DNA of 64,000 nucleotides from positions 476 to 64,475 of the forward strand of contig DUBO01000045.1 in the NCBI GenBank assembly GCA_012960245.1. Direction: 5' to 3'. Positions 7,826 through 40,961 of the stretch are shown here, one piece after another. Within the stretch, counting starts at the first letter, position 1, and every line of letters starts with the position of its first letter. A program made the position numbers and the translations under genes. Source of the stretch: Candidatus Binatota bacterium (GTDB lineage Bacteria > Desulfobacterota > Binatia > UBA1149). The notes under the pieces were generated by a model, which was given only the letters and a program-made list of their open reading frames with translations, had not been told where the DNA came from and did no database searches.

Positions 7826-7943
7826 GGCACAAATCCGCCGCGTGCACCCCGGCAGGACCACGCCACGGCAAGCGACCTCGCAAGTGTTTGCCGCCGGTAA
7901 GCCTTTCGCTTTTCACTACGTCGCCCACGTGGAAAGGTGCGGC

Positions 7944-8354: not shown

Positions 8355-8400
8355 TGCGCGTTGACGGCTGCCCCACTGGCCGGGGCCTGACCTGGTACTC

Positions 8401-8423
8401 TTGCCACCAAAGGAACGTATCCC
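8401..8423 (+). promoter_or_regulatory. Leader motif TTGCCACC...AAGGAACGTATCCC
   Basis: The leader of the aldo-keto reductase gene reads TTGCCACCAAAGGAACGTAT followed by CCC. The AAGGAACGTA(A)TCCC block recurs 18 nt (start to start) before the ATG at 43751, again preceded by TTGCCACC, and as AAGGAGCGTATCCC before ispH (1733). The GGA-to-ATG distance of about 12 nt is long for a plain ribosome site. The function is unknown. Confidence 0.4.
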
Positions 8424-8427
8424 ACTC

Positions 8428-9462: not shown

Positions 9463-9465
9463 CCC

Positions 9466-20076: not shown

Positions 20077-20087
20077 CAAGTCCTGCC

Positions 20088-22723: not shown

Positions 22724-22809
22724 GCCTTATACCTGCTCTTAAATCACTGTAAATACAAGAAGTTAGGCGCGGCCATCTCCCCTCCCCCTGGTCAGTGGCA
22801 GGATCGGCG

Positions 22810-24993: not shown

Positions 24994-24999
24994 GCCCCA

Positions 25000-25431
25000 T
25001 CAATCGGCAGGTTCGAGCATTACCAACGGTATCTCCCGGTCGGTCTTGCCCTGGTAGCCAGCGTAGTTCGTGAAGTCGCTGGTTATCGTCGGCCAGAGGC
25101 GTTCGCGCTCTTCGCGGCTCGCGACACGCGCGTTCATCTTGCGATCAGCAGAGCCCTGCATGGTCACCACCACCCGGGGATTATCCCGCAGGTTGAGAAA
25201 CCAGTTGGGGTGGTGGTCTGCTCCACCCTTCGACGCAACGATGACGATCGCATCGCCATCCCGGTGGGGCGATGTCAGCATCACCGAGCGGGGCTTACCC
25301 GACTTGCGACCGATGGTGGTCAATTCGAGCACCGGCATATCGGCCGCCGTCCAGCCCAGTCTTCCCCTGCTCAACTTGAGCAGGCAGCGGTGTGCAGAGT
25401 TCATAAACCTGAGGGCCCTGTTACTTGGCAT
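25000..25431 (-). CDS. Deazaflavin-type nitroreductase family protein (Ddn/DUF385-like)
   Basis: 143 residues, split beta-barrel. The signature VLELTTIGRKSGKPRSVMLT followed by ADHHPNWFLNLRDNPRVVV matches the F420-dependent Ddn/FDOR-B family. This suggests, but does not prove, F420 or related flavin use. The ATG at 25431 directly abuts the TAG of the upstream serine hydrolase gene (TAGATG), implying translational coupling. The stop is 7 bp before the start of the molybdoenzyme gene, so the three may form an operon. Confidence 0.85.
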   Translation of the reverse strand: MPSNRALRFMNSAHRCLLKLSRGRLGWTAADMPVLELTTIGRKSGKPRSVMLTSPHRDGDAIVIVASKGGADHHPNWFLNLRDNPRVVVTMQGSADRKMNARVASREERERLWPTITSDFTNYAGYQGKTDREIPLVMLEPAD

Positions 25432-26577
25432 CTAGTTATCCTCCCCGTAGATCGCGTCGACCAGGCGGTAGGCCCGTGGGTCGAGCAGTATGTGCGGACC
25501 CATGCGGTTCATCACGTATGCAAAGCCCAGTCTCCGCTCGGGGTCGTAAAAAGCCAGCGAACCGCCCGCACCGGCGTGGCCGAAGCTCCCCTCGCCCGAA
25601 CCGAACGACATGTGCGGCTGCGGCAACATGAATCCCACCGAAAAACGCGTTTCCAGTTCCAGCACCGCGTCGGGCCCCTGCGCCAACTCACGGCCGCAGG
25701 TGGCGATAGCCTCTGCCGAAAGCAACCCAGCCGCGTTGCCGTAGATCCTGGCCAGCGACAGGGCCGAAGAGTGACCGTTGGCACCCGGCACCTGGGCTCC
25801 GCGCCAGGCCCGCGAGTTAACGGCGCCCGGTTGCATGAGCGCGGGCGGGTTGGTGAAGGCGCGGGCGGTGAGGCCCTCGAGGTCCGACATCATTAACTCG
25901 ACCAGGTTGGGCTCGCCCGCGGGCACGGGGTCGGTGGACAACTCGCCCATCTCGGCGCAGCGCGCGTCCAGTTCCTCGCCGAAGCCGAGATAAAAATCGG
26001 CTCCCGAGGGCGCCGCGATTTCTTCGCGTATGAAGGTGGCCACGTCGCGACCATCAACCCGACGTACAAGTTCGCCCCCGAGCCAGCCAAAACTAATCGC
26101 GTGGTAACCGTGTTTCTCGCCCGGCGTCCACCAGGGCTTCTCGGCGGCGAGCACCGCACAGATACCGTCCCAGTCGTAACCCGCGTCGGCTTCCAACTGT
26201 TGCCGCACTGCCGCCAGTCCGGCCTGGTGCGACATGAGCTGGGCCACCGTGATGTCCTGCTTGCCCGCCGCGGCAAACTCGGGCCAGTAATCGGCCACCG
26301 GCGAGTCCAGCGATATCTTTCCCCGGTCGACAAGAACCTGCACCGCGAGCGCGACCATGCCCTTGGTTGTAGAAAACACGTTTACTATCGTGTCTTCCTG
26401 CCAGGGCTCGCCACCCGGGGACTTGCTGCCGCCCCACAGGCTGGCCAGCACTTCGCCGTTTTCCACCACTGCCACGGCGGCGCCGATCTCGCAGCCGTCG
26501 GTAAAGTTGGCCTCGAAAACCTGCCGCAGCCTGTCGAGCCGAGGGTCGCAGTGTCCGTTCACAGTGCTCATAGCCAT
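25432..26577 (-). CDS. Serine hydrolase, beta-lactamase class C/EstB family
   Basis: 381 residues. The SxxK nucleophile motif is NVFSTTKGMV. The Tyr of the YxN position is in GYHAISFGWLGGEL, and the third motif is FGHAGAGGSLAFYDPE, where esterase members have HGG-like instead of KTG. SHQAGLAAV and WWTPGEKHGYH support an EstB/VIII-type esterase, not an antibiotic-hydrolysing enzyme. There is no signal peptide, so it is probably cytoplasmic. ATG 26577 has AAAGGA upstream. The stop codon touches the start of the Ddn-like gene. Confidence 0.85.
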   Translation of the reverse strand: MAMSTVNGHCDPRLDRLRQVFEANFTDGCEIGAAVAVVENGEVLASLWGGSKSPGGEPWQEDTIVNVFSTTKGMVALAVQVLVDRGKISLDSPVADYWPEFAAAGKQDITVAQLMSHQAGLAAVRQQLEADAGYDWDGICAVLAAEKPWWTPGEKHGYHAISFGWLGGELVRRVDGRDVATFIREEIAAPSGADFYLGFGEELDARCAEMGELSTDPVPAGEPNLVELMMSDLEGLTARAFTNPPALMQPGAVNSRAWRGAQVPGANGHSSALSLARIYGNAAGLLSAEAIATCGRELAQGPDAVLELETRFSVGFMLPQPHMSFGSGEGSFGHAGAGGSLAFYDPERRLGFAYVMNRMGPHILLDPRAYRLVDAIYGEDN

Positions 26578-26659
26578 GTTCTTTCCTTTCTCGAATCCAG
26601 GTAGCAGTTGTCCAGGTGAGGGTTGTCCAGGTGATGGTTACCGAGTCGGCAAGCCGCGG

Positions 26660-28318
26660 TCAGGAAGCCTCGGCCACGAGGCTGGGCAACTGGTAGCCCT
26701 CTTCTTCGAGCGCCGCACGTATGACCTTCTTGTTGATCTTGCCGGTCGAGGTCAGGGGAATAGAATCTCGAAACAGCACGTCGTCGGGCAGCTGCCACTT
26801 GGCAAAGCGAGACTCGCAGTGCTTGAGTACCTCGTCGGCATTGAGCCCGGCGCCTTCGGCCACCACGACGATGGCCACCGGCCGTTCGTCCCACTTCGGG
26901 TGAGGCTGGGCCACGACGGCGGCCTGCGCAACCGCTGGTAACGAAACGATGTGGTTTTCGAGATCCACCGACGAGATCCACTCGCCGCCCGACTTGATCA
27001 TGTCCTTGGAGCGATCGGCGATGATGAGGTACTCGCCCTCGTCTATCTTCGCCACGTCGCCGGTAACCAGCCAGCCCTCGTGAAACTTGGTCGGCTGCGG
27101 ATCGTTGTAGTACTCCGACGCGATCCACGGGCCACGGATGAGTAATTCGCCAACGGCCTCGCCGTCGTGGGGCAGCGGCTGGAACTCCTCGTCGACTATT
27201 TCAATATCGAGACCGGGAATGAGCTGCCCCGCCTTGGCTATGTTGGCAAACTGTTCGTCGAGAGACAGCTCGTGGTCGGCGTACTTGGCAACCCGGCGCG
27301 ATATTGTTCCCAGCGGGTTTGTCTCGGTCATACCCCAGCCCTGTATCATCTCCACGCCGAGTTCATCCCAGAACCAGCGCATGAGCGAGGCCGGCGGTGC
27401 CGACCCGCCGCAGGTCACGCGGTTGAAGCGCTCGAGATTCCAACGGTCGGGCTCGGCCTGCACGGCGGCCATCACGCCCTGCCAGATGGTCGGCACGCCG
27501 GTCGATACCGTGACGCCCTCACTGGCGTATAGGTCGAGCAAGGCCACCGGATCCATGGCACTGCCGTTGAGCACCTGCCGGCAGCCGGTCATAAGGTTGG
27601 CGAAGGGAACGCCCCAGCCCATCGCGTGAAACATTGGCACCACGCCCAGCACGCAGTCGGTGGCCGACAAGCCCAGCGCGTCGGTCATGCACACCGCCAT
27701 GGTGTGCAGGTAAGTGCTGCGGTGGGTGTACATCACGCCCTTGGGATTGCCGGTCGTACCGCTGGTGTAGCACAGACCCATGGGCGAATTCTCGTCGAGC
27801 TCGGGCCAGCTGCAATCGTCGAGCTGGCCAGCAATAAACTCCTCGTAGTCCACGGTCTCTACACCGGCTAGCGGGCCGTCTCCCGAAACCGCGTCACCGT
27901 CCGAACACACGACGATCTTTTCAACGCAGTCTATCTTCCCCGACAGCGGGGCCAGCAACGGCAACAGGCTCTCGTCGGCCACGATCACCCTGTCCCCCGC
28001 GTGGTTGATGATGTACTCGAGGTCGGCAGGGCCCAGGCGTAGGTTGAGCGTGTGCAGCACCGCGCCCATCGAGGGCACGGCCTGGTACATTTCGAGATGG
28101 CGGTGGTTGTTCCACTGGAAACTTGCCACTCGGTCTCCGTGGCCGATGCCGTAGCTGCCCAGGGCGTTGGCCAATTGACACGCACGCTTCCTGGTCACGG
28201 CCAGCGTCTGGCGGTGGATGCCGTCGGCCTTCAGGGTGACAACCGTTTCATCGGGCGCAACGCGGGCGCCACGGTCGGTCAAGCGGTGCATCAAGAGTGG
28301 GGTACGCTGCATCGTCAT
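26660..28318 (-). CDS. Acyl-CoA synthetase (AMP-binding; fatty acid ligase)
   Basis: 552 residues, ANL superfamily. The P-loop-like motif is YTSGTTGNPKGVMYTHRS. Further motifs are VPMFHAMGWGVPFANLMTG, QGWGMTETNPLG, the hinge region LVTGDVAKIDEGEYLIIADR and KSGGEWISSVDLEN, and the catalytic lysine in SIPLTSTGKINKKVIR. It activates fatty or related acids to acyl-CoA via acyl-adenylate. The medium/long-chain FadD/AlkK-like subgroup is likely. The start ATG 28318 (MTMQRTP) has AGGAGA eight bases upstream. The frame is open further upstream without homology. A hairpin lies in its leader (28338-28372). Confidence 0.92.
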   Translation of the reverse strand: MTMQRTPLLMHRLTDRGARVAPDETVVTLKADGIHRQTLAVTRKRACQLANALGSYGIGHGDRVASFQWNNHRHLEMYQAVPSMGAVLHTLNLRLGPADLEYIINHAGDRVIVADESLLPLLAPLSGKIDCVEKIVVCSDGDAVSGDGPLAGVETVDYEEFIAGQLDDCSWPELDENSPMGLCYTSGTTGNPKGVMYTHRSTYLHTMAVCMTDALGLSATDCVLGVVPMFHAMGWGVPFANLMTGCRQVLNGSAMDPVALLDLYASEGVTVSTGVPTIWQGVMAAVQAEPDRWNLERFNRVTCGGSAPPASLMRWFWDELGVEMIQGWGMTETNPLGTISRRVAKYADHELSLDEQFANIAKAGQLIPGLDIEIVDEEFQPLPHDGEAVGELLIRGPWIASEYYNDPQPTKFHEGWLVTGDVAKIDEGEYLIIADRSKDMIKSGGEWISSVDLENHIVSLPAVAQAAVVAQPHPKWDERPVAIVVVAEGAGLNADEVLKHCESRFAKWQLPDDVLFRDSIPLTSTGKINKKVIRAALEEEGYQLPSLVAEAS

Positions 28319-28337
28319 CGTTAGTTTCTCCTGGGTG

Positions 28338-28372
28338 GGGCGGCTCGAGAATCCTCGCGAACCGCCCTTTTT
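28338..28372 (+). terminator. Intrinsic-terminator-like hairpin facing against its neighbours
   Basis: GGGCGG-CT-CGAG-AATC-CTCG-CGAA-CCGCCC is followed on the plus strand by TTTTT (28368-28372), a classical terminator form. Both flanking genes are on the minus strand, so it would stop antisense transcription, or act as a leader hairpin 20 nt before the ribosome site of the acyl-CoA synthetase mRNA. Confidence 0.5.
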
Positions 28373-28424
28373 AGACCGGATACCGTGGCTTGGGCAAGTG
28401 CTGGCGCCGGCGCAGCCTTCTTTT

Positions 28425-29486
28425 TCAGGCAGCGGCGATGAAGTCGACGCCGTCTGTCCAGCCACGCTGGCTTACCCAGGCGCGTATCCGCTCGCGAGCA
28501 CCCGCCTGTCCAACCGCCGCAACTGCCAGCGGCCGGGGCTCAAGCAGGGCTAGATCCTCCATTGAGATAACCGATAGGCGCCGCCCCTCCACCAGAACCG
28601 AGCCCCCCTGCTTGCGCGGATTGACCTCGGCAAAGCCCCGCGGGCAGCGCCCTTCGCGAGCCAGTCCCCGGGCCAGTGTCTTGCCCACCGGGCCGGCGCC
28701 CAGCAGCCAGCAGTCCTGCTCCTCTCGCGCGGCTTCGCCCAGCCAACCAGCAAGAAAGTACGCCCGCGCCCGCGCGAAGGCCTCCTCGCTGTAAGCCTCG
28801 TCGTTGCGCCACGACTGGCCGTCGTGCAAGCGCCAGCGGTAGAGCAGGCCGGGCAACGAAGCCAGCTCGTGTCCCGCGGCCAGCGCCCGCAGCACGAGAT
28901 CCCAGTCCTCGGGCCAGCCGCGGCTGCACCACCCTCCGAGTTGGCGAAGTCTGCTGCTGTGCAGCATCAGGGTCGGATGCAGAACCGGGCACTCCACGAA
29001 ACGATCCCGCCCCAGCTCGGCAGTGGTCGTCAGAGAACCCTGCCAGTCAAGATAACGGCGCATGCCGTCGTTCATGCGATCGCCAGGAAAAGCCTCGACA
29101 GCACAACCAACGGCGAACAAGCGTGGGTTGTCGCGCAACGCCCGCTGCTGCTCGGCAAGGCGCGTGGGCCGGCAACAGTCGTCGGCGTCCATACGCGCGA
29201 TCAAGGGCGCCTGCGCCAACTGCAGACCGTAGTTGAGCGCGTCGACAATGCCGCGGCCCGGGTTAGCCACCAGTAGTATCCTGCTGTCACGCCCGGCCGC
29301 TGCCTCGAGCACGGACCGGCTCGCGTCGCTGCTGTGATCGTCGACCGCCAGCAGCTCCCAGTCTTCCAGGGTCTGCGAGGTCACAGAATCCAGTGCCTCT
29401 CGCAGCCACGCGGCGGCGTTACGCACGGGCATGAGCACGCTGACTTGCGGCGGTCGCCGCTTCTGCCATTGCTTCGGTTGGCCCAC
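28425..29486 (-). CDS. Family 2 glycosyltransferase
   Basis: About 353 residues. The GT-A domain has QVSVLMPVRNAAAWLREALD, LLAVDDHSSDASR and the DxD-type metal site LIARMDADDCCRPTRL. WPEDWDLVLRALAAGH follows, the usual ED...R region. The C-terminal ~100 residues (GAGPVGKTLARGLA, RGFAEVNPRKQGG) look like a small Rossmann-type domain, unusual for GT2. The product may be a cell-envelope glycan; the acceptor is unknown. GTG 29486 is chosen because homology begins about 12 residues later and the divergent FAD gene starts at 29507. Confidence 0.8.
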   Translation of the reverse strand: MGQPKQWQKRRPPQVSVLMPVRNAAAWLREALDSVTSQTLEDWELLAVDDHSSDASRSVLEAAAGRDSRILLVANPGRGIVDALNYGLQLAQAPLIARMDADDCCRPTRLAEQQRALRDNPRLFAVGCAVEAFPGDRMNDGMRRYLDWQGSLTTTAELGRDRFVECPVLHPTLMLHSSRLRQLGGWCSRGWPEDWDLVLRALAAGHELASLPGLLYRWRLHDGQSWRNDEAYSEEAFARARAYFLAGWLGEAAREEQDCWLLGAGPVGKTLARGLAREGRCPRGFAEVNPRKQGGSVLVEGRRLSVISMEDLALLEPRPLAVAAVGQAGARERIRAWVSQRGWTDGVDFIAAA

Positions 29487-29506
29487 GACCGGATAGTGTC
29501 GGCAGC

Positions 29507-31117
29507 ATGGCAGCAAGGCAACGCAGTTTCTGGGGCTGGGGTTACGAGGGCGAGGGGCCGTCGGAAGAACAACGTCGTGCCATCGCCGGCGCGCTGGCCG
29601 AGCGCTTCGGCGTCGAGGCCCCCGAACCCGCCACTCCACCGCGGCTCGAAGACCTCGACCTGCGCCAACCGCGCCTGTCCCCACCCTCGTCGCTCGAGCA
29701 AGCCTGCTCACAGTCGCCATACGAGCGCGCGCTGCACAGCTACGGGCGTAGTTTTCGCGACGTGGTGCGTGGGCTGGCCGGAGATTTCGGCAACCCGCCC
29801 GACGTCGTTGCCTACCCGGCCGACGAAGACGAGCTGTGCTCGTTGCTCGACTGGGCCGGTGACCAGGGCGCGGCCGTGATTCCCTTCGGTGGTGGCTCGA
29901 GCGTGGTGGGCGGCGTGGAGCCGGCTGTCGGCGACAGCTATGCCGGTACGGTGACCGTCGACCTGTCGCGCATGGACCGCGTGCTCGAGATCGACCGCGA
30001 GTCGCGCGCCGCGCGCATACAAGCGGGGGTCTACGGCCCCGCTCTCGAAGACCAGCTGCGGCCACACGGGCTCACCCTGCGACACTTTCCCCAGTCGTTT
30101 GAGTTCTCGACACTGGGTGGCTGGATCGCCACGCGCAGTGGCGGACACTACGCGACGCTGTACACCCACATAGACGACTTCGTGGAATCGCTGAGGGTAA
30201 TAACGCCTTCGGGGAGCATAGAGTCACGGCGCCTGCCGGGCTCGGGCGCCGGCCCCAGCCCCGACCGCATGTTCATCGGTTCGGAGGGCACGCTGGGAAT
30301 AATAACCGAAGCCTGGATGCGGCTGCAGGACAGGCCCAGCATGCGGGCATCGGCCTCGCTGCGTTTTACCGATTACGAGCAGGCCTGGCGGGCCGTGCAG
30401 GCGGTATCGCAGTCGGGGCTGTTCCCCGCCAACCTGCGGCTGCTCGACAAGGTGGAGGCGGCGCTCAACGGCGCGGGTAACGGCGACGACCACGTTCTTA
30501 TAGTCGGCTTCGAATCCGCAGACCACCCACCCGACGCGTGGATGGCACGGGCGCTCGAGTGCTGTCGCGACCACGGCGCCAGCCACGACGAGGGAGCCGG
30601 CGCCACCCGCAGCGACCAGGCGGGCAACCGCGAGGGAGCAGCCGGGGCCTGGCGCAAGTCGTTCCTGCAAGCGCCCTACCTGCGCGACGCGCTGGTGACG
30701 ATGGGCTTTATAACCGAGACCTTCGAAACCGCCATAACCTGGGATCGCTTCGAACAGTTTCATTCGGGCATCATCGAGGCCGTCAACAAGGCACTGGCCG
30801 ACATTTGCGGAGGCGGGCAGGTGACCTGCCGCTTTACCCACGTGTACCCCGACGGGCCTGCTCCTTACTTTTCGATCATCGCGCCCGCGCGCGCCGGCGC
30901 CCAGCTGCAGCAGTGGGCCGAGATCAAGGCAGTCGCCGCCGCGGCGGTAATAGACCTTGGTGGTAGCATAACCCACCACCACGCAGTCGGCCGCGACCAC
31001 CGGCCCTGGTACGAAAAACAGCGCCCCGACGGGTTCGCGAGAGCCATGCTGGCCGCGCGCGCCGAGATGGATCCGGCCGGGATGCTGAACCCCGGCGTGT
31101 TGTTCAAGGCGCCCTGA
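29507..31117 (+). CDS. FAD-dependent alkyl-dihydroxyacetonephosphate synthase-like protein
   Basis: 536 residues, VAO/PCMH-type FAD protein. N-terminal RQRSFWGWGYEGEGPSEEQ and SYGRSFRDVVRGL are typical of alkyl-DHAP synthases (AGPS). The FAD domain shows IPFGGGSSVVGGV, PQSFEFSTLGGWIATRSGGH and RMFIGSEGTLGIITEA. The substrate domain ends with DLGGSITHHHAVGRDH, the His-rich active-site segment of AGPS. In eukaryotes this makes ether lipid precursors by replacing acyl with alkyl on acyl-DHAP; bacterial members may act likewise or in other oxidations. ATG 29507 is 20 bp from the divergent GT2. The gene overlaps the convergent M20 gene by 14 bp. Confidence 0.85.
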   Translation: MAARQRSFWGWGYEGEGPSEEQRRAIAGALAERFGVEAPEPATPPRLEDLDLRQPRLSPPSSLEQACSQSPYERALHSYGRSFRDVVRGLAGDFGNPPDVVAYPADEDELCSLLDWAGDQGAAVIPFGGGSSVVGGVEPAVGDSYAGTVTVDLSRMDRVLEIDRESRAARIQAGVYGPALEDQLRPHGLTLRHFPQSFEFSTLGGWIATRSGGHYATLYTHIDDFVESLRVITPSGSIESRRLPGSGAGPSPDRMFIGSEGTLGIITEAWMRLQDRPSMRASASLRFTDYEQAWRAVQAVSQSGLFPANLRLLDKVEAALNGAGNGDDHVLIVGFESADHPPDAWMARALECCRDHGASHDEGAGATRSDQAGNREGAAGAWRKSFLQAPYLRDALVTMGFITETFETAITWDRFEQFHSGIIEAVNKALADICGGGQVTCRFTHVYPDGPAPYFSIIAPARAGAQLQQWAEIKAVAAAAVIDLGGSITHHHAVGRDHRPWYEKQRPDGFARAMLAARAEMDPAGMLNPGVLFKAP

Positions 31118-32318
31118 AGAGTTGCCGACCGTCGGCGAGCATGGCCAAAGCCACGGCGCAGTGCAGTGCCGCGCCCACGGACAGCACCCCCTCGTCGAGT
31201 TTCATGCGATCGGAATGCAGGGGGCCGCCGTCTTCGACACGACAACCGAGAAACGCCATCGCTCCCGGCACACGGTTGAGCACGTATGAAAAATCTTCGG
31301 CACCCATCATCGGGCCGGGCATTTCGATACTGCGAAGACCCAGCCCCCCGGCAACGCCAGCAACCAGCCGGGCCGCGTACCCGTCGTTAACGGTAGGTCC
31401 GTAGCCTTCGGCTATGTCGACCTCGGCCGTGAGCCCGCGCGCGGCCGCAACTCCCGCCACCACGCGGCGCAACTGGTCGTGGGCGCGCTGCCGTCCATCG
31501 TCGCTCAGGCAGCGTATCGTTCCCTGCAAGGTGGCACGCGGAGGAATGACGTTGAAGGTACTGCCCGCTTCGACCCTGGTGACACTGAATACAACGCGAT
31601 CGTAGGGGTCGGTCTCGCGGGCCATCGCGTGCGACAACCCGTCGACGATCGGCCCGATACCAGGTATCGGATCCGCGGAAAGATGCGGCACCGAGGCGTG
31701 TCCCCCGCGACCGTCAAGATGAATCTCAAAGATATCGGCCGAGGCCATGAAGGTGCCCTCTCGCCATGACACTGCCCGCGACGGCGAGCTGGGGTCAACG
31801 TGTATTGCGAAGGCCGCGTCTACTCCCTCCAGGGCTCCCTCGTCGAGCATGACCACCGCTCCCCAGTGCCCCTCTTCGCCGGGCTGGAACATCAACCTCA
31901 CCGTGCCGGCAAAGTCGGCACGTCGCTCCTGCAACAACGACGCGGCACCGAGCAGCATTGCCACGTGGGCGTCGTGTCCGCAGGCGTGCATGCAACCATC
32001 GCGCTCGGAGCTGAAGTCAACGCCGCTGTGCTCGGTCATGGGCAGGGCGTCGGTGTCGGCCCTGAGCGCGACCACCCCCGCCGGCCGCTGGCCCTCGACT
32101 GCTTTGCCCTCGCCGACGATGTCGGCCACCACCGAGCTGCAACCTTCGCCGCTGCGGGCGCCGCTGATGCCCAGCCGTTCGAGCTCCCCCAGTATCAACG
32201 CCTGCGTGTCGGGGTTGACCAGGCCGAGCTCCGGGTTGACGTGCACGCGCCTGCGCAACTCGACCAAGCGCTCGGCATCGCGGCCGGCCGCGGCCAGGAG
32301 TTCGTTGTCGTCGCTCAT
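31104..32318 (-). CDS. M20-family amidohydrolase (HipO/AmhX type)
   Basis: 404 residues. Metal-binding region: HACGHDAHVAMLLGAASLL. The catalytic Glu region is LMFQPGEEGHWGAVVML. The dimerisation insert has GRGGHASVPHLSADPI, and the C-terminal His lies in PMMGAEDFSYVLNRVPGA. Members hydrolyse N-acyl amino acids or amides in the cytoplasm. ATG 32318 overlaps the TAA of the selenocysteine DsbA-like gene by one base (TAATG), so translation is coupled. It is the last gene of a three-gene operon (crotonase, seleno-DsbA, M20). Confidence 0.9.
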   Translation of the reverse strand: MSDDNELLAAAGRDAERLVELRRRVHVNPELGLVNPDTQALILGELERLGISGARSGEGCSSVVADIVGEGKAVEGQRPAGVVALRADTDALPMTEHSGVDFSSERDGCMHACGHDAHVAMLLGAASLLQERRADFAGTVRLMFQPGEEGHWGAVVMLDEGALEGVDAAFAIHVDPSSPSRAVSWREGTFMASADIFEIHLDGRGGHASVPHLSADPIPGIGPIVDGLSHAMARETDPYDRVVFSVTRVEAGSTFNVIPPRATLQGTIRCLSDDGRQRAHDQLRRVVAGVAAARGLTAEVDIAEGYGPTVNDGYAARLVAGVAGGLGLRSIEMPGPMMGAEDFSYVLNRVPGAMAFLGCRVEDGGPLHSDRMKLDEGVLSVGAALHCAVALAMLADGRQLFRAP

Positions 32319-32950
32319 TACTCCTGCCGCCCCTGCTCAGCTTGCACCTGTTTGAGCCGGCGGTTGACGATGTGGCGATAGAGGTCGAGCTCCTGGGCAC
32401 CGGGCAGCGTAAGCACGTCGCCGTCTACCACCACCGTCGGTATGCCGGTGATACCGAGCTCGCGGGCCTCGGCGAAATCTTTCTGCAGTTCTTCTTCCAG
32501 CGCCGGGTCGTGGAGGTCAGCCTCAAAACGGACCTGGTCCAGGCCCAGCTCCACGGCGACCTCGACCAGCGTGGATCGATTACCCGGGTCGCGGTGTTGT
32601 TCGAAGTAGGCCTTCATCAATGCCAGGTGGTAGTCGGTGAAGCGTTGCTGGCGGGCGGCCGCCTTGACGGCGATGCCCGACGGCAATGACCACGGGGTGG
32701 GTGGCTCGGCCGAGCTCCAGGGATACGCAAAAACCGGCGAGCCCGGCATCGACTCGGGACGCGCCCAGGACGCGGTATAGCCGGTAAACTTCTCCAGCGA
32801 GGTCGCGCGTTGTTGCGGGCGCAGCATATAGCCTCGCCAGTTAACGATCAGCTTGTCACCGAACTCATCCTCGAGGGTGCGCAGGCTCACGGCCGCGACA
32901 TAGCACCAGGGTCAAAGAACGTCCGACCAGACTGTGAAACGGACCTCCAT
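32318..32950 (-). CDS. Selenocysteine DsbA/FrnE-family oxidoreductase, UPWC motif (TGA=Sec13)
   Basis: Reading from ATG 32950 through one in-frame TGA (32914-32912) gives 210 residues beginning MEVRFTVWSDVL-U-PWCYVAAV. The family N-terminus is xxxxSDxxCPWCY, so Sec13 stands at the first active-site cysteine and Cys16 is kept (UxxC). The rest is DsbA-like: LIVNWRGYMLRPQQR, AYFEQHRDPGNRSTLVEVA, KDFAEARELGITGIPTVVV with the cis-proline. FrnE and HCCA-isomerase relatives share this layout. The start is supported by a one-base TGATG overlap with the upstream crotonase stop. Without recoding, the protein would begin near residue 21 and lack its active site. A SECIS-like stem-loop with a bulged U follows (32907-32876). 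Physiological substrate unknown. Confidence 0.92.
32876..32907 (-). other. Bacterial SECIS-like hairpin for Sec13
   Basis: On the minus strand GGUG (32907-32904) pairs with CACC (32879-32876). Above an asymmetric internal loop, CGCGGC (32897-32892) pairs with GCC-U-GCG (32886-32880), leaving a single bulged U. The loop is CGUGA, which starts 20 nt after the UGA. It resembles the peroxiredoxin element, whose loop also begins CGUGA. Bulged U and GU-containing loop are known SelB-recognition features in E. coli. Confidence 0.75.
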
Positions 32951-33651
32951 CAGCCGGTCATCATGCCAGCGAGGTCGGTGTCCATCCATTGCCGGATGGA
33001 GGCCACCACGGGCCCGCGTGCATCCTTGCGAGTGAGGGCAAACGCACCGCGGCTGAGCTGGGCCAGGCGCGCGGCGTCTTCAACAGCCGCTGCTATAACA
33101 TCGCCGGGCTCCACGACCTGGTCGAGAAAGCCGATGTCCACCGCCTCGGCGGGATTGTAGAGCCGGGCCAGTTGCGTGGCCTCGTGCAGGTCCTTGCGGG
33201 CCAGGCGCTCGCGCGCAAGCACCAACGCAAAATAGGGCAGGTTCATTCCGATGGCTGTCTCGTTGAGCCCCAGTTTGAAGTCACCAGCGGTGCCCACCCG
33301 CTTGTCGACCGACAGGAGCAGCATGGCTCCCAGCGCCACCGCGTGGCCGGTGCAGGCCACCACCACCGGGCGCGGGCTGGCGTAAAACCGCAGCAGCATC
33401 TCTATGCCGCTGGTCAAAAGAGCCAACGCGCCCTCGGGGTCGCCGGTGATGACCTTGAGATCAAAGCCGCCGGACAACCGCCCCTCGCGACCACTTATGA
33501 CCACCGCCCCGGCGTCGGCTTCATCGACTTCGTCGAGCAGTGAATTCATGCTCGCTATGGCAGCGGGCGAAAACGCGTTGGCCTTGCCGTCATCCATATG
33601 GATATGGGCCACGCCGTCTTCGATGCTAAGCGTTATGTTGTTGTCAGCCAT
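32950..33651 (-). CDS. Enoyl-CoA hydratase/isomerase family protein
   Basis: 233 residues, crotonase fold. The start MADNNITLSIEDGVAHIHMD is standard. The oxyanion-hole segments are SGREGRLSGGFDLKV and CTGHAVALGAMLLLSVDKRV. GLNETAIGMNLPYFALVLA holds the region of the second catalytic residue; Glu is seen in LNETAIG. It probably hydrates or isomerises an acyl-CoA. It is the first gene of the coupled operon with the seleno-DsbA and M20 genes. Confidence 0.9.
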   Translation of the reverse strand: MADNNITLSIEDGVAHIHMDDGKANAFSPAAIASMNSLLDEVDEADAGAVVISGREGRLSGGFDLKVITGDPEGALALLTSGIEMLLRFYASPRPVVVACTGHAVALGAMLLLSVDKRVGTAGDFKLGLNETAIGMNLPYFALVLARERLARKDLHEATQLARLYNPAEAVDIGFLDQVVEPGDVIAAAVEDAARLAQLSRGAFALTRKDARGPVVASIRQWMDTDLAGMMTG

Positions 33652-33726
33652 GCGGGCAGTTCTAGCGGCGATCGCCTGCTGAAAAAAGGCCGCCGGCAGT
33701 AATCGGCTTTCCGGCCAGCGGCGCGT

Positions 33727-34479
33727 TCAGCGCCCGGCCGCGACCTGCGACAACACGGTGCGAATGCGCGCCGCGTTGACACCGAGGTCGCCGCGCCCGT
33801 CGCGAGAACGAGAGCGCACGTCTACCTGCGTGCCTTCATCAATGGCTCGCACCCGGACAACTACATCGTCCACGAAGTGAAAAATCGACGAGGTGGCCGA
33901 TGCCTCCAGGCGCCCGCTCGCCCTGTCCACATCGGTTACGGTCGTGCTCGCGAGGTCTTCGAGCGCCGCCTGCACCCGGTCGAATACCAGGTCGTAAGGC
34001 TGGGTGAGGAGCAGCGGGGCAAGATCGGCGTCGGATTGGCGCTGCTGGGCGGCGAACTCTTCGCCGGGGTAAGCCATCGGGTTGCCTTCGTTAGCGGGAT
34101 CTTCGAGCGCCTTCACGAAGACCGGGGGGTCGTTGATGTCGGTCGTAAAATCGTTGATGGGCGGAGCGTCGGCCCCCTGCCCCGAGAGCGCTACCAGCAA
34201 TGCCACGACCATGCTGCCCGACACCAGGGCACCAGACACCGCATCGCCACGACCGTCGAGTCCGGCAGCAGCGCGGGTCGAGTAAAGCCCCAGCAGCGAA
34301 CAGACCAGCGCCAGCAACGACAGCAGCATGGCCAGCGCAAAACCGCCAAAGCCGGCCATCGGCGATATGACCTGCACGAAGGCTGCGGCCACCGAGCCCA
34401 CGCCCAGGGCCATGCCCACGAGGGCGAGCAGTCTACCCACTGCCGCGATGCGCGAAGAACTGTTACCCACTGTAGCCAT
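33727..34479 (-). CDS. DUF1499 membrane protein
   Basis: 250 residues. Three hydrophobic segments lie in the first ~105 residues, followed by a soluble DUF1499 domain: PPINDFTTDINDPPVFVKA, PYDLVFDRVQAALED, SIFHFVDDVVVRVR and GTQVDVRSRSRDGRGDLGVN. The last motif is the hallmark of the family (PF07386), whose function is unknown. ATG 34479 has GAGG close upstream. It follows the BON lipoprotein gene on the same strand with a 73-bp gap. Confidence 0.88.
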   Translation of the reverse strand: MATVGNSSSRIAAVGRLLALVGMALGVGSVAAAFVQVISPMAGFGGFALAMLLSLLALVCSLLGLYSTRAAAGLDGRGDAVSGALVSGSMVVALLVALSGQGADAPPINDFTTDINDPPVFVKALEDPANEGNPMAYPGEEFAAQQRQSDADLAPLLLTQPYDLVFDRVQAALEDLASTTVTDVDRASGRLEASATSSIFHFVDDVVVRVRAIDEGTQVDVRSRSRDGRGDLGVNAARIRTVLSQVAAGR

Positions 34480-34552
34480 GGCCTCGTATCCCCCTCTTGC
34501 TATATCGGCAGCGGCGGTGACCCGCAGGCGCCGGACTCAATCCCGGTTGTTG

Positions 34553-34942
34553 TCATTCATTGTCGACAGTGAGGTTGTCGGCCACGTCTTCTACTCCGCG
34601 CACGGCTTCGGCCAGCTTGACCGCCTTACGACCAACCTTGCGGCTGGGCACCTTGCCGAACAACTTTACATTGCCGTCGTGGCTGTCGACCTTGATGTCC
34701 CACACGCTTATCTCATCGTCCGCGGCGTAGGCAGCCTTGATACTCAGCTCTATGCCGGTGTCGTCTATGATCTGCCCTACCGGGCGGTCGTCCTTGCCGG
34801 CGTAGTAACCACCGGCGGCCGCGCCGCCCAGTGCAACCGGCCAGCAGCCGGCCAGCAAGCCACCCAGCAGCAGCGGTACAACGGCCAGCGCAAGGCGGGA
34901 CAAGAAAGTGGAACCGACGGGTTTGAGGTTATTTTTTATCAC
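34553..34942 (-). CDS. BON-domain lipoprotein
   Basis: 129 residues starting at GTG 34942 behind AAAGG. The lipobox LLAGC (Cys at about residue 33) ends a hydrophobic leader. A Gly/Ala-rich stretch (GGAAAGGYYAGKDDRPVGQI) precedes a single BON domain: DTGIELSIKAAYAADDEI, WDIKVDSHDGNVKLFGKVPS, AEAVRGVEDVADNLTV. OsmY/DolP-like BON proteins act at the envelope under stress and bind phospholipid. This one is probably an outer-membrane-anchored periplasmic lipoprotein. Confidence 0.88.
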   Translation of the reverse strand: MIKNNLKPVGSTFLSRLALAVVPLLLGGLLAGCWPVALGGAAAGGYYAGKDDRPVGQIIDDTGIELSIKAAYAADDEISVWDIKVDSHDGNVKLFGKVPSRKVGRKAVKLAEAVRGVEDVADNLTVDNE

Positions 34943-34986
34943 GCCGCACCTTTAGCATGTACCGCCGGTAAGCGGCAGCCAGCGCC

Positions 34987-35730
34987 TTATCCCTCGGCGC
35001 CCTGCCCCGCCCAGGGCCTGTTGCCGTAGTTGTCCAACGACACGACATCGCCCACCGGACGGCGGGTGGTGGGCCCGTAACGTCCCCGCGGCCAGCCCAG
35101 GGGAATAACCGCGCAGGGGGTGACCTTCCACGGCAGGCCGAGAATACGACGGGCCTTTATGGTGCTCCACAGGGGCAGGGTTATCAGCGCCGCGCCCAGC
35201 CCGGCCGCGCGCGCGGCCAGCAACAGGTTCTGGACCGAGGGGTAGATCGAACCGTACAAGCCCGTGGCTGCCATGGGAGGCCACGGCGGAATGATGCTCC
35301 TGAGGCAGGCCACAACGATCACCGGGATGTCTTCAAAATGATCGGCCTGCCACTGCACGGCATTCAGGATGCGCTGCTGGCCCTCGTCGTTGCGCGCCAA
35401 CCAGCGCCCGAGGCCGCCGTAGATTTTCCACATGCGCATATTCTGCCGCCCCAGTGCGGCCTTGACCGCGGGGTCCCTCACGACAACGAACTCCCAGTTC
35501 TGCGCGTTCGAACCGGTGGGCGCCTTGAGCGCCAGTTCGAGCAGGCGCAGCACCAGGCCATCATCTACCGGGTCGTCGGTGAGTCGGCGTATCGCCCTCT
35601 GCGTGCTCATCGCCTCGGCCAGTGGCATGTCCAGCGACACCTCGGCCCCGGGGCGCTTCTCGCCTGCGGGCGGCTGTTCGCCTATCGGCGGTTGTGACTG
35701 TTCGCTTTGCTGATCTTCCATGGGCGGCAT
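34987..35730 (-). CDS. Nitroreductase-family flavoprotein
   Basis: About 247 residues, NADH/FMN nitroreductase fold. STQRAIRRLTDDPVDDGLVL and LKAPTGSNAQNWEFVVV supply the FMN-phosphate-binding Arg and Ser/Asn. NLLLAARAAGLGAALITLPL and C-terminal VTPCAVIPLGWPRGRYGPTTRRP complete the family pattern. The first ~40 residues are Gln/Pro-rich and probably disordered. The start is ATG 35730 or 35721 behind AAGGAG. It is divergent from the selenoprotein B gene. Confidence 0.85.
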   Translation of the reverse strand: MPPMEDQQSEQSQPPIGEQPPAGEKRPGAEVSLDMPLAEAMSTQRAIRRLTDDPVDDGLVLRLLELALKAPTGSNAQNWEFVVVRDPAVKAALGRQNMRMWKIYGGLGRWLARNDEGQQRILNAVQWQADHFEDIPVIVVACLRSIIPPWPPMAATGLYGSIYPSVQNLLLAARAAGLGAALITLPLWSTIKARRILGLPWKVTPCAVIPLGWPRGRYGPTTRRPVGDVVSLDNYGNRPWAGQGAEG

Positions 35731-35843
35731 TTCTCCTTGCGAAAGCTGTTCTCGCGACCCGCAGTGTAGCCTGCTGTTGACCCTTGGCAAGGCCGGCTTG
35801 CCACCGCCTTCCAGTTTTGGCAGGGCTCGGCTAAACATGGGTC

Positions 35844-36674
35844 ATGCAATCCCCCACCCACAGCCGAGCGCCTCTCTCTTCGAGCGAGGTCGCCTGGTCA
35901 AAACGGGCCGTGGCCCGGGTCGCCCTGTGGATGCAACGCAACACGCCGGGTATCTACCAGTGGCACGCCGCCCGCGAGAACCACCGCTGGCACAGCGAAG
36001 TCCCATTTTCGCCCCTGCTGAAGCCGCTGAAGCAATGCCGGGTAGCCCTGGTGAACTCGGGCGGACTCATCCTCGACGACCAGCAGCCCTTCAACCTCGC
36101 TGTCGAAGAAGGCGACTGCAGCTACCGGGTGATACCTGGAGATGCCGACCCCGCCCGCCTGGTGGTCAGCCACATGTTCTACGACGCGCACAATGTTGAA
36201 CTGGACAGCGGCGTGATGCTGCCACTGGCTGTGCTCAAAGACTTCGCCGTGGAGGGAAAGATAGGCAGCGTGGGTCCCCGTCACTTCAGTTTCAGTGGCG
36301 GCATTCCCGACCCTGGCGAGCTCATCGAGCGCTACGCCCCTGAGGTGGCCGAGGCCATGGTCTCCGACGAAGTGGACCTCGCGATACTCACGCCGGCTTG
36401 AGGCTACTGCCACCGGGCCGTCGGCCTGGTAGCTAGAGCCATCGAAGAGCGCGGCATAGCCACCCTCATGGTCACCCTGCTGCCCGAAGCGACGCGCAAG
36501 CTCGGGGTACCGCGCACGTTGCACTTTCCTCGACCACTGGGAACCCCCATAGGTCGACCAGGTGACAGGCAAACCCAGGCTCACGACCTGGAGCTATGCC
36601 TGCAGGCAGCCGCCCAACTTGGTCGCGAAGAAATGGCCGAGTACAACGGCGACGAGCTGAGCTACCCCGTATAA
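35844..36674 (+). CDS. GrdB/PrdB-family 'selenoprotein B', UGYC motif (TGA=Sec186)
   Basis: Reading from ATG 35844 through one TGA (36399-36401) gives 276 residues. The upstream part has CRVALVNSGGLILDDQQPF, VIPGDADPARLVVSHMFYD, GSVGPRHFSFSG and EVDLAILTPA. After the TGA, GYCHRAVGLVARAIEERGIA leads to VTLLPEATRKLGVPRTLHF, and the tail matches the family end. The site is therefore TPA-U-GYC, a UxxC redox motif like that of the Sec subunits of glycine/betaine/sarcosine and D-proline reductases. Substrates of stand-alone family members are unknown. Stickland partner genes are absent here. A SECIS-like structure follows at 36402-36434. Conventional calling would end the gene at 36401 and add a spurious small gene at 36468. 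Confidence 0.92.
36402..36434 (+). other. Bacterial SECIS-like hairpin for Sec186
   Basis: GGCTA (36402-36406) pairs with TAGCT (36430-36434, one G-U). CCA (36410-36412) pairs with TGG (36427-36429). GGCC (36416-36419) pairs with GGCC (36423-36426). The loop GUC starts 18 nt after the UGA. Two 3-nt bulges lie on the 5' side. It is less regular than the other two candidates. Confidence 0.6.
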
Positions 36675-36705
36675 CAACGCTGCCCCCTGAAACGAAAAAA
36701 CAACG

Positions 36706-37284
36706 ATGGCCATAGACCCCGTAAAACGATTCAATCGCTGGTTCTCCGAAGCCAGGCGAGCCGGCATAACCCTGCCCGAAGCCTGCGCCATGGCCACTGT
36801 AGACAGCCGCGGCCGCCCAACGCTGCGCTACCTGTTACTCAAGCAGGCCGGCCCCGACGGTTTTGTTTTCTATACCAACGCCCAGAGCGACAAGGGCGAG
36901 CAGCTGCGCAACAACCCGGCCGCCGCGCTGGCGTTCTACTGGGATGCCACCGGACGACAGGTGCGCATAGAAGGAACCGCCACGCTGCTATCGGCCGCGA
37001 CGGCCGACAAGTACTGGGCCACCCGTCCCCGCGGCAGCCAGCTGGCCGCGGCTGTATCGCAACAGAGCCGAACTTTGTTCGACCGCTCACGGATGATGGC
37101 CGAGTATCGTCACCTGGAGAAAAACAGCGAAGGCCAGGACATCAAGCGCCCCGACTACTGGAAGGGGTACTCCATCAAGCCTCGGCGCATCGAATTCTGG
37201 ACGCGGCGGGAACCACGACTGCATCACCGGGAATTGTTCGTAAGGCGCAACGGGGAGTGGACCAGCCGCCTGCTGCAACCCTGA
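36706..37284 (+). CDS. pdxH: Pyridoxamine/pyridoxine 5'-phosphate oxidase
   Basis: 192 residues. FMN enzyme oxidising PNP or PMP to pyridoxal 5'-phosphate. ACAMATVDSRGRPTLRYLLL, FVFYTNAQSDKGEQLRNNP, ALAFYWDATGRQVRIEG and the C-terminal signature RRIEFWTRREPRLHHRELF (substrate-binding R-x-H region) are present. It lacks the long N-terminal arm of E. coli PdxH, within normal variation. ATG 36706 is 31 nt after the selenoprotein B stop on the same strand. It supplies cofactor for DapL, among others. Confidence 0.93.
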   Translation: MAIDPVKRFNRWFSEARRAGITLPEACAMATVDSRGRPTLRYLLLKQAGPDGFVFYTNAQSDKGEQLRNNPAAALAFYWDATGRQVRIEGTATLLSAATADKYWATRPRGSQLAAAVSQQSRTLFDRSRMMAEYRHLEKNSEGQDIKRPDYWKGYSIKPRRIEFWTRREPRLHHRELFVRRNGEWTSRLLQP

Positions 37285-37382
37285 AGACCACGTTCCACCG
37301 CACCGCAGATCACACAAAGGGCTGGCGCTGTTGACCACGGCCCCGCCGACGCAGACAATGGAGACCCCGGGGGAGAACAACA

Positions 37383-37763
37383 ATGGAAACGCGATTGACG
37401 ATGGTTATACGAATTCTGTTGGGCCTGGCGATGTTCGTGTTCGGACTCAACAAGTTCCTGCACTTCATGCCCACGCCCGAGCACCACGGTGCGGCGGCTG
37501 AGTTCCTCGGATCACTGGCTGCCTCCGGCTACATATTCCCAATGGTTGGAGTGGTCGAGACCGTGTGCGGCTTCCTGCTGTTGACCGGCCTGTTCGTGCC
37601 ACTGGCGTTGATCCTACTGGCGCCGGTGACGTTAAACATCGTCGCCTTCCACGCCTTCCTCGATCCGGCCGGCATAGCGGTGGCCGCGCTGCTGGCCGTG
37701 CTCCACGTTTACCTTGGCGTGGCCAACATCGACCGCTTCAACGCCCTGCTGCGTTCCAGGTAG
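37383..37763 (+). CDS. DoxX family membrane protein
   Basis: 126 residues with four helices: TMVIRILLGLAMFVFGLNKF, AASGYIFPMVGVVETVCGFL, PLALILLAPVTLNIVAFHAF and AVAALLAVLHVYLGVANIDR. GLNKFLHF followed by a GF-LL-TG helix resembles the DoxX family. ATG 37383 has GGGAG upstream. The gene ends before a CCGCCC/GGGCGG inverted repeat (37764-37782). The function of bacterial DoxX homologues is poorly defined. Confidence 0.75.
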   Translation: METRLTMVIRILLGLAMFVFGLNKFLHFMPTPEHHGAAAEFLGSLAASGYIFPMVGVVETVCGFLLLTGLFVPLALILLAPVTLNIVAFHAFLDPAGIAVAALLAVLHVYLGVANIDRFNALLRSR

Positions 37764-37875
37764 CCGCCCTGTCTCCGGGCGGCCGACGGACAGGCTTTGG
37801 GCCAAGCAGCCCCCCTACCCCCCCGGCCGGGGGTGCGTAGATGCGACTTTCTTCATGCGAACGCACCCACTGCCG

Positions 37876-37897
37876 AAGCACAAGCGATTTTGTGCTT
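37876..37897. promoter_or_regulatory. Perfect 8-bp inverted repeat, operator-like
   Basis: AAGCACAA (37876-37883), spacer GCGATT, TTGTGCTT (37890-37897). Its right arm overlaps the first two bases of a TTGACA promoter element, a typical place for a repressor operator. A hairpin in RNA is unlikely to matter because it precedes the probable transcription start. Confidence 0.5.
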
Positions 37898-37925
37898 GAC
37901 AGAATAGCAACCAATTTCCTAGGCT
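37896..37925 (+). promoter_or_regulatory. Candidate sigma-70-type promoter for the Cys-rich exported protein
   Basis: A perfect TTGACA (37896-37901) is followed, 18 nt later, by TAGGCT (37920-37925), a weak -10 match. The surrounding sequence is unusually A/T-rich for this genome. The start codon of the next gene is about 110 nt further on, leaving a substantial leader. Confidence 0.45.
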
Positions 37926-38036
37926 TGTACCGGGCGTGTCTGCTTTGACCCGACCCCTTGAACTGTGAGTGCAGCCCGGTGCCGAGCGGGAAGGCCACGG
38001 CCTGACAGCGATGCCCCGTTGGAGGAAATTGCCGTA

Positions 38037-40961
38037 ATGAAAAACGTACACAACTCGTCGTTAGTGGCCATGCGGGCCGTGGCTTCGTTATTTTTTGCAG
38101 CCTTGGTTTTTACCGGCGGCGTGCTGCTCCAACCGGCCACCGGGTCAGCAGCCGCGCTCACGAGCAAGCTCGAAGGCAAGTGCGTTTCAAAGGTGTCCAA
38201 AGCTGCCACCAAGGCCGCCGCTACCACGGCCAAGTCACTGGCCAAGTGCCGCGACGCCGACATAAGCGGAAAGGCGGTAGGCTCGTGCCCGGACGCCAAG
38301 GGCCAAGCGAAAATAGACAAGGCCAAGGCCAAGGCCACGGCGACTGCTGCCAAGAGCTGCGGAAGCACCTGCACGGTGTCGGGAATCGACTGCGTTGCCG
38401 ACAACGGCTGTCCCCCGCTCGGAGGATCGGCCAACGAACTATGCAAGGGCGACGGTGCCTTCGACATGGGCACCATCAACTACCCGGGCCCGTTCTGCGA
38501 ATCGACCCTGGGTGTAGCACTCGCAAGCGCTTCGCAGATAGGCGAGTGTGCCGGGCAGCTCGCTTCTGCAAGCGGCTCTGATCTCGTTGACCTGTTATAC
38601 GGATCCATAGGCAACGCCGATGGCCTTTCGAAGGTCACGGCCAAGTGCCTGTCAACGATCTCCAAGTCAGCAGTGAAGCTTACCTCCACGATAGCAAAGG
38701 GGGTGGCCAAGTGCCGCGACTCGATCAACAATGGCAAGACGCTGGGCAATCCACGTACCTGCACCACCGACGACACCAAGCTGGCGGACAAGATAAGCAA
38801 GTCCGACGCCAAACTGCGCGCTGACATAGCCAAAAAATGTATTGCTTCCGACATCCTGCAACTCGACCTGTGCGGAGAGGGAGTGGGGGGCGTCACTTCG
38901 ATAGCCGATGCCCAGGATTGCGTGGCGGCTGCCGCGGCTGAGCTGGCCGATTCCCAGGAGTTGGCCCCAGACCGCAGCTACTCATCGCGGTCGATAGTTG
39001 AAGCCGCTTACCCTCCCACGGCGGTCTGCGGCGATAATGTCATAAACCAGGGGCCGAGCAGCAGTATGCTGCTCGGAGAAGAGTGTGACGGCACCGATGC
39101 CGCCAGTTGCCCCGGCGCCTGTTTTCCGCCGGGCGACCTTTTCCAGTGTACCTGCGCAAATGTGTCGCGCTATCGGCGACAAGCCGACTCTCTCGCCTCG
39201 GACTCTGACGCTGGCTGGATAGGCGGCTCGCACGACCAGGCCACACCGAACAAGGGTGGGTTCATACTGGACAGGACGGACTGCGACTGCTCTGAGCTGA
39301 CCAACAACACCTGCACCGGCAGCTCGGCCGACCCCGTCTGCACGATAGCAGCAACCACCAGGCCCACTTGCTCGAACACACCCGGCGTGGGCAATTGCCT
39401 CAGGGACGAAGACTGCCGAACCTGCGATTCGTTCAACAGTGATGCCGGCGCGAGCTGCTCCGACCACGACGACTGCCAGGCCCAGTGCTACGACTCGGGT
39501 GGGAGCCCGGTTGGCAACTGCAGCTCGCAGGCCGACTGCGGAGCTAACGAAGTATGTCGTGGCCAGTGCGACCGAAGCGCCGACTGCGTGTACCTTCTAA
39601 GCAGCAATCCCTTCCCGGTATCCAACGGCGGAACGCCCGTTTGCACGCTGCAGTTAATGGCCACCGACGTTAGCGGAACTCAGAACATGCAGACCGGTGC
39701 CGCCGAGTACTTCTACGAAGCCAACAGCAAGGTCTTTCTCGGCATAAATACCGCCACCCCTTGCCCGGTATGCGGTGGCTTCTGCGACGGGGGCACCTTC
39801 GAAGGCCTGCCTTGTAGTGGCAGCTGTAGTACCAGCGGTGACGAGTGCCGCTTCAACAGCGACTGCGCGGGGGGTGAAACCTGCTCAAGCACGTCAGGCG
39901 ACTGCCCGGGCAGCACCTGCAACCTGTCTAATATCTGCTTCGGTGGCGCGGGATATGCCAAGAACGGAGCCGCCTGCGAGGTGGGCGACGTTGATGCAGT
40001 TTTCGGCTCGGTTTCTAACGACTGCCCGCCCGACGTGGGCGCGTCGATATCGGGCGAGTTCGGGCTACGCATACGCCACTTGCCCAACACCACGCACTCC
40101 CGGTCCCTGGATGCCGCTGTCGATGGCGTGCCCTGCTCGGCCGCTGGTTTCGAATTGTTCGACTGCCCCTGCCCGGATGCGGGTGGCGTGCCTACGCAGG
40201 TCAACTCATGCAACCCGGGCTGCAACGCGGGGATAAATTCGGGCGGTGGTTGCGCAGACGGCGTCGGTAGCGGAACCTTCGCCAGCTGCGCCGCGGGCGC
40301 CAACGTGGCCAAGGCCTGCGACGAGGACTCCGACTGCCCCGGTAGCAGCTGCGAGAACCCCCTCCACTGCGAAGGCGATCCCGCGACCGAGCACGTGGCC
40401 TGTACCAGCAGCGCCACCTGCGGAACCGGAACTTGCGTGGACGCCTGCCCCGCTGGCCTCTGCATACCGCTGTGCGAGCTCAAGACCGGGGATCCGTGGC
40501 CCCTGGACCGCGAATGTTCCGCGGGACCCACCGAGACGAGCTGCACCGGCGAGGGACACTCCTTCCGCGTCTGTGATAAATCCAGCATCGGGGCGGGCTG
40601 TAGTGCCACCTGCGTCACCGCCGGTACTCCCTGCACGAGCCAAGCAGACTGTGGAGTGGGCGACAGCTGTTCGGGGCCTTGCGAAGAACGCCGCCAATGC
40701 GAAGCTGGGCTCGACGGTTTCCTCGGAAATGACGACGATTTCATTGGAGCTGCCGGCTGCATCGAAACGAATCTGGAATGTTTTGCCCCGTTGATAGAGG
40801 GCAATGGCTTGCTGTCTGGCAACGCCGATAACTACCAGTCGATCAGCATTTACTGTTACACGGCCACCACGTCACCCGCGATCAATTCGGGAGCGGGATT
40901 CGGCGGCCCCGCACGTAACCACGAGGTCGGTGTCAACTTATCGAACGGCGTGCTGCCCTAA
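38037..40961 (+). CDS. Very large exported Cys-rich protein with tandem KC...KC helical domains
   Basis: 974 residues from ATG 38037, which has GGAGGA ten bases upstream. Residues 1-40 form a long signal sequence. Two related Lys/Ala-rich helical units follow, starting GKCVSKVSKAATKAA (about 47) and AKCLSTISKSAVKLT (about 207). Each has a second KC/KCRD pair, probably disulfide-linked helices. A DUF4215-like stretch (VCGDNVINQG...GEECDGTDA) precedes about 600 residues dense in cysteine, with short repeats of the form C-x-S-x-A-D-C-G-x-x-x-x-C. No enzyme motif is seen. An extracellular or outer-surface structural or adhesive role is inferred. A strong terminator follows. Confidence 0.85.
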   Translation: MKNVHNSSLVAMRAVASLFFAALVFTGGVLLQPATGSAAALTSKLEGKCVSKVSKAATKAAATTAKSLAKCRDADISGKAVGSCPDAKGQAKIDKAKAKATATAAKSCGSTCTVSGIDCVADNGCPPLGGSANELCKGDGAFDMGTINYPGPFCESTLGVALASASQIGECAGQLASASGSDLVDLLYGSIGNADGLSKVTAKCLSTISKSAVKLTSTIAKGVAKCRDSINNGKTLGNPRTCTTDDTKLADKISKSDAKLRADIAKKCIASDILQLDLCGEGVGGVTSIADAQDCVAAAAAELADSQELAPDRSYSSRSIVEAAYPPTAVCGDNVINQGPSSSMLLGEECDGTDAASCPGACFPPGDLFQCTCANVSRYRRQADSLASDSDAGWIGGSHDQATPNKGGFILDRTDCDCSELTNNTCTGSSADPVCTIAATTRPTCSNTPGVGNCLRDEDCRTCDSFNSDAGASCSDHDDCQAQCYDSGGSPVGNCSSQADCGANEVCRGQCDRSADCVYLLSSNPFPVSNGGTPVCTLQLMATDVSGTQNMQTGAAEYFYEANSKVFLGINTATPCPVCGGFCDGGTFEGLPCSGSCSTSGDECRFNSDCAGGETCSSTSGDCPGSTCNLSNICFGGAGYAKNGAACEVGDVDAVFGSVSNDCPPDVGASISGEFGLRIRHLPNTTHSRSLDAAVDGVPCSAAGFELFDCPCPDAGGVPTQVNSCNPGCNAGINSGGGCADGVGSGTFASCAAGANVAKACDEDSDCPGSSCENPLHCEGDPATEHVACTSSATCGTGTCVDACPAGLCIPLCELKTGDPWPLDRECSAGPTETSCTGEGHSFRVCDKSSIGAGCSATCVTAGTPCTSQADCGVGDSCSGPCEERRQCEAGLDGFLGNDDDFIGAAGCIETNLECFAPLIEGNGLLSGNADNYQSISIYCYTATTSPAINSGAGFGGPARNHEVGVNLSNGVLP

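Follow-up and report, generated by a model that had tools for sequence, protein, structure and literature searches.

A free-standing PrdB-like selenoprotein in Candidatus Binatota, probably a self-contained seleno-reductase

Here we describe a selenoprotein gene in a window of 64,000 nucleotides, the whole stretch of DNA that was analysed, from Candidatus Binatota (genus UBA1149). Judged from sequence, the gene encodes a genuine selenoprotein, in which Sec insertion at UGA186 is directed by a conserved downstream SECIS element with SelB and tRNA-Sec in support, and its product is PrdB-like (about 240-280 aa) rather than full-length GrdB-like (about 430 aa). We consider it probably a free-standing PrdB-type selenoenzyme of a host that is itself probably aerobic, working as a self-contained UxxC seleno-reductase without a pyruvoyl partner. 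The gene and its features are as follows.

35844..36674, + strand: stand-alone PrdB-like selenoprotein gene (TGA-as-U translation; TIGR04483, 149.8 bits; Pfam GRDB, 41.7 bits; frame and TGA common to all orthologues)
36399..36401, + strand: in-frame TGA, Sec residue 186 (invariant TGA column in 30 Binatia-class members)
36399..36446, + strand: TGA and bacterial SECIS element, with hairpin 36409-36433 and apical loop GTC at 36420-36422 (fold, covariation, held-out model)

The ATG open reading frame (35844-36401) encodes 185 aa and is terminated by the TGA after EVDLAILTPA; read through this codon as Sec, the frame continues to a TAA at 36672-36674 and yields a product of 276 aa with the motif TPA-U186-GY-C189-HRAVGL (UGYC, of the UxxC type). 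A first-pass annotation had proposed this read-through, reasoning that GYC and a conserved tail of about 90 residues follow the TGA. The frame was confirmed, since TIGR04483 spans residues 55-257, and the segment after the TGA does resemble the family C-terminus, where TIGR04483 and the GrdF and GrdH models all align. The TGA occupies the same codon in 30/30 Binatia-class members inspected, and Cys replaces Sec186 in Alphaproteobacterial homologues and in one Paraclostridium homologue. Twelve columns are invariant over 29 homologues, most of them 3' of the TGA, and they include U/C186, C189, E201, G204, T207, P223, R224, and G233; the UxxC motif is conserved throughout the family. The N-terminal half contributes the conserved residues H110, D121, P127, and G152, of which His110 and Asp121 are invariant. 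Comparisons of orthologues within the window's order give Ka/Ks values of 0.12-0.53 for the part before the TGA and of 0.16-0.44 for the part after it, and the latter is under purifying selection.

The 48 nt from the TGA onwards fold at -26.0 kcal/mol, below 212/212 control windows of the same gene. In the alignment of 30 Binatia-class genes, the SECIS hairpin pairs columns 11-21 with columns 25-35 around a GTN loop; 96.6% of cells are paired, far above controls, cells changed on both sides number 35 compared with 12.5 in shuffles, and the covariation score is 0.397 compared with 0.173 in shuffles and at most 0.105 in slid controls. A covariance model built from rows L031-L054 (families of other orders and copies in other genera, leaving out the window clade and its own genus, with four rows, L034 and L036-L038, being distant UPVC-type paralogues from the window's own order) matches exactly 36399-36446 at E=3.5e-7, the next match in the window standing at E=3.4. 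The full covariance model recovers 27/27 held-out loci from a phylum-wide search and finds no match in clostridial or enterococcal PrdB genes or in the Alphaproteobacterial Cys homologues, from which the hairpin is also absent by folding. Rfam at its gathering threshold reports nothing in the window. As to the machinery, the window's genome encodes SelB, over its model cut-off, and a tRNA-Sec with anticodon TCA; among 58 relatives, tRNA-Sec is present in 29 of the 32 carriers of PrdB-like genes and in 13 of the 26 non-carriers (Fisher p=0.0009). That the TGA might instead be a genuine stop codon, an error of sequencing, or the mark of a pseudogene, with the downstream similarity a relic, accords with standard annotation, which would end the gene at 36401; this reading is already refuted, to a degree that leaves it next to no probability, because the TGA is present in each of the orthologues found and the downstream segment is conserved. 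The same conserved TGA, together with low downstream Ka/Ks, the covarying SECIS, and the Sec machinery, leads us to regard the gene as a genuine selenoprotein.

The gene belongs to a recurrent group in its lineage. The window's genome, a 2.82-Mb draft in 60 contigs that is 96% complete, carries three PrdB-like genes, all three with an in-frame TGA, and contigs of two relatives are 93-94% identical to it. PrdB-like genes occur in 32 of the 58 relatives, with the TGA in all among the matches listed, and 83 of 395 genomes in a phylum-wide draw match at E<=1e-20. Among the matches listed from this draw, only L125 (genome G403) lacks an in-frame TGA; it has no internal stop, yet is one of the 27 loci recovered by the full covariance model, which gives it 25 bits, and is possibly a recent Sec-to-Cys change. 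The window clade (>50% identity) is confined to the window's order of Binatota, both among the relatives and in the phylum-wide draw. No homologue of the protein was found in the viral contigs searched.

The first-pass annotation had assigned the protein to a joint GrdB/PrdB selenoprotein family; the superfamily placement stands, and within it the protein is of the PrdB-like and not the full-length GrdB-like form. Its Pfam GRDB score (PF07355) exceeds the cut-off of 22 bits, and the Sec-x-x-Cys motif with a SECIS after the UGA and the Sec machinery of the host are those of a selenoprotein of this superfamily. TIGR04483 (PrdB) is the best NCBIfam model and, as the suggested search across codon 186 bore out, aligns unbroken through Sec, but its score is half of the 300-bit equivalog cut-off. 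The GrdB, GrdF, and GrdH models reach 43-63 bits over a corresponding part (residues 52-241 for GrdF and GrdH) against cut-offs of 602-800 bits; for GrdB itself, 276 aa and 43.4 bits stand against about 430 aa and 602 bits. The protein shares with these three the C-terminal region and the UxxC motif, but is without their N-terminal domain of about 200 aa, and the genome holds neither GrdE nor GrdA. In the tree, support for the order of the deep branches is poor; the window clade (P0001, L024, L025, L028-L030) and true PrdB form separate groups, each at 100/100.

A conventional PrdB, working as part of D-proline reductase in Stickland metabolism, would agree with the best NCBIfam model and with the UGxCHR motif common to true PrdB; indeed, the protein shares UGxCHR[SAT] with D-proline reductase PrdB, is of similar length, and is colinear with it across Sec at about 38% identity over about 200 aa. 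We nevertheless hold this explanation to be very improbable: the model score falls far short, the clade is separate, there is no prd operon, and no PrdA/GrdE-type gene (PF09338) was found in the window's genome or in six relatives with the same kind of gene, although the same search recovered positive controls in three true-prdB records and five class members. Similarly, GrdA (PF04723) was not found in the window's genome, whereas matches came from two class members and from two clostridial records. Binatota are furthermore predicted to be aerobic methylotrophs (PMC8262859). The first-pass claim that the gene lies outside a Stickland cluster, with no grdA or prdA, thus extends across a 96%-complete genome, and a complete prd or grd operon elsewhere, which would have spoken for a normal Stickland role, did not appear in the form of any PF09338 or PF04723 gene. 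Neither the PrdA that accompanies PrdB nor the GrdE and GrdA partners of GrdB being present, a Stickland role through the established mechanism appears unlikely, and the protein is, as far as its sequence and genome define it, no D-proline or glycine reductase subunit. The prdB of Peptoclostridium acidaminophilum (L065, plasmid EAL2_808p) was considered as an orphan and set aside, for a PF09338 gene that is missing from the PLSDB table lies just upstream of it (W01:258999-260039). Elsewhere in the class Binatia, five genomes (G026, G046, G033, G053, and G040; e.g., L080-L083) each carry 3-7 GrdE/PF09338 genes along with full-length, TGA-containing GrdB-like genes, and two of them (G026 and G046) also have a GrdA with an in-frame TGA; these sequences suggest that some Binatia possess real glycine/betaine-type reductases in many copies.

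The flanking genes are as follows.

34987..35838, - strand: nitroreductase-family gene, divergent, upstream of the PrdB-like gene (PF00881, 80.1 bits)
36706..37284, + strand: pdxH (pyridoxamine 5'-phosphate oxidase), downstream and probably co-transcribed (TIGR00558, 216.9 bits; cut-off 180)

Both flanks were named by the first-pass annotation and both are present; they differ in reach, the nitroreductase adjoining the PrdB-like gene only within the genus, while pdxH lies directly downstream in two further members of the genus (G001, G002) and in one genome of another family (G007). The nitroreductase was accordingly rejected as a functional partner because its adjacency is genus-only, and a pyridoxal role drawn from pdxH is weak because pdxH is a single housekeeping copy in the window's genome and sits on a different contig from the PrdB-like gene in G011. 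Further downstream, a 998-aa Cys-rich open reading frame (37965-40961, + strand) consists of many short Cys-containing repeats and is about 90% conserved in the genus. PADLOC found nothing. Neighbourhoods vary from clade to clade and are for the most part not conserved, so that no single conserved pathway is apparent from them, and gene context is no more than weakly informative about the substrate.

Every characterised GrdB or PrdB acts in a complex, and the protein could accordingly supply the Sec-bearing subunit to a reductase of several components, with a substrate-binding partner unlike PrdA encoded elsewhere or by a neighbour. In two families (L056 and L057, in G007 and G012) the same-strand gene immediately upstream is of the crotonase type, which favours such a partner, as does the genome's own second copy (G000:C43, L020 = 19500-39400, 7030-10251), which has a UPVC motif and stands behind genes for a thiolase and for an F420-dependent LLM oxidoreductase (TIGR03564, 312.6 bits, over cut-off), an arrangement partly conserved and similar in several genera of the window's order. 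No partner is conserved even across the window clade, however, and G011 (L055) has none of the pdxH, crotonase, or nitroreductase neighbours; we regard a multi-component reductase as unlikely.

With no pyruvoyl partner, the most economical reading would be an enzyme that reduces an activated small molecule by itself, through its Sec/Cys pair. For GrdB and PrdB, the carbonyl (pyruvoyl) of the partner is believed to hold the substrate amine while the selenolate attacks carbon, and a thiol then cleaves the resulting selenoether, giving a selenenylsulfide (PMC10298544). The present enzyme would keep PrdB chemistry minus the pyruvoyl-anchored D-proline step: the Sec186 selenolate would attack an electrophilic site on a small molecule, perhaps an activated carbon (C-N, C-S, or C-X) or a bond of the type S-S, S-O, or O-O; Cys189 would resolve the intermediate to a selenenylsulfide, setting the reduced product free; and the enzyme would be regenerated by a thioredoxin-type cellular dithiol or by a flavin/F420 reductase. 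His110 and Asp121 are candidates for an acid/base role or for substrate binding. FarB of Synergistota, a GrdB-type protein found by transcriptomics and implicated in C-F cleavage of fluoroacetate (PMC10838667), provides a precedent and suggests, by analogy, that the GrdB-type scaffold is usable on a non-amino-acid electrophile; it differs in being of the full-length GrdB type, in having a GrdE-type partner, and in serving anaerobic dehalorespiration.

A role as a general thiol or peroxide redox protein, either an antioxidant or a disulfide reductase and not a metabolic enzyme, would fit the UxxC motif, which recurs in redox selenoproteins of marine origin (PMC1088965, Table 3), and a weak resemblance to Thioredoxin_3 over residues 178-209 (E=0.051). 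That match is below threshold, and the conserved H110/D121/P127/G152 half, together with the likeness to substrate-binding GrdB and PrdB, suggests a small-molecule site, which makes this explanation more doubtful still than a multi-component reductase. A search of PDB sequences gave no match to the protein, and a PDB profile search returned only designed proteins and marginal glutaredoxins, no solved structure resembling the family by sequence; a structure prediction from an alignment of the window protein and two near-identical orthologues reached a pLDDT of 36.8, too poor for a test of the active site. For the self-contained seleno-reductase that we favour, a new specificity, as the first-pass annotation had supposed, is plausible. 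More specifically, and more tentatively than for the reading as a whole, we suggest that a PrdB-type selenoenzyme may have shed its pyruvoyl subunit and may alone cleave a non-proline electrophile reductively in an aerobic methylotroph.

Free-standing forms of this kind had been called undescribed. They have in fact been reported since 2005 (PMC1088965, PMC2398784), and what holds of that claim is that, in the literature searched, their function is still unassigned. In the Sargasso Sea only two known selenoprotein families were more abundant than 'PrdB', which numbered 42 genes and was referred to there as proline reductase (PMC1088965); the GOS study places it among the top selenoprotein families, with 235 Sec and 110 Cys forms in its Table 2 (PMC2398784); and a 2021 marine survey attributes 6.4% of selenoprotein genes to proline reductase (PMC9402790). 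Aerobic Cys forms carry the NCBI name 'glycine/sarcosine/betaine reductase selenoprotein B family protein'. The Binatota genome paper makes no mention of selenium (PMC8262859), and our literature search found no paper joining Binatota with selenoproteins and none assigning a function to the partner-less PrdB form. Set beside the marine proteins of 2005 and of GOS (2008) by description, the present protein, which stands outside any prd operon, has the same pfam07355 membership, UxxC motif, and Sec form, the latter prevalent at sea, and likewise no assigned function; it differs in that the window clade is small, has UG[YLI]CHR and an N-terminal extension of about 50 aa, and occurs only in the window's order.

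Since free-standing ocean 'PrdB' has been on record from 2005 onwards, the gene joins, on the published descriptions, an already known, widespread, and functionally unassigned group of orphan selenoproteins, which by the same reports is among the most abundant in the ocean (PMC1088965, PMC2398784, PMC9402790). That a partner was not found, that Sec and SECIS are strictly kept, and that the phylum is predicted to be aerobic argues against carrying over the proline-reductase label, and the same evidence argues that an unassigned seleno-reduction exists. If the proposed reading is true, the ocean-abundant PrdB-like selenoproteins would be misannotated as proline reductases.
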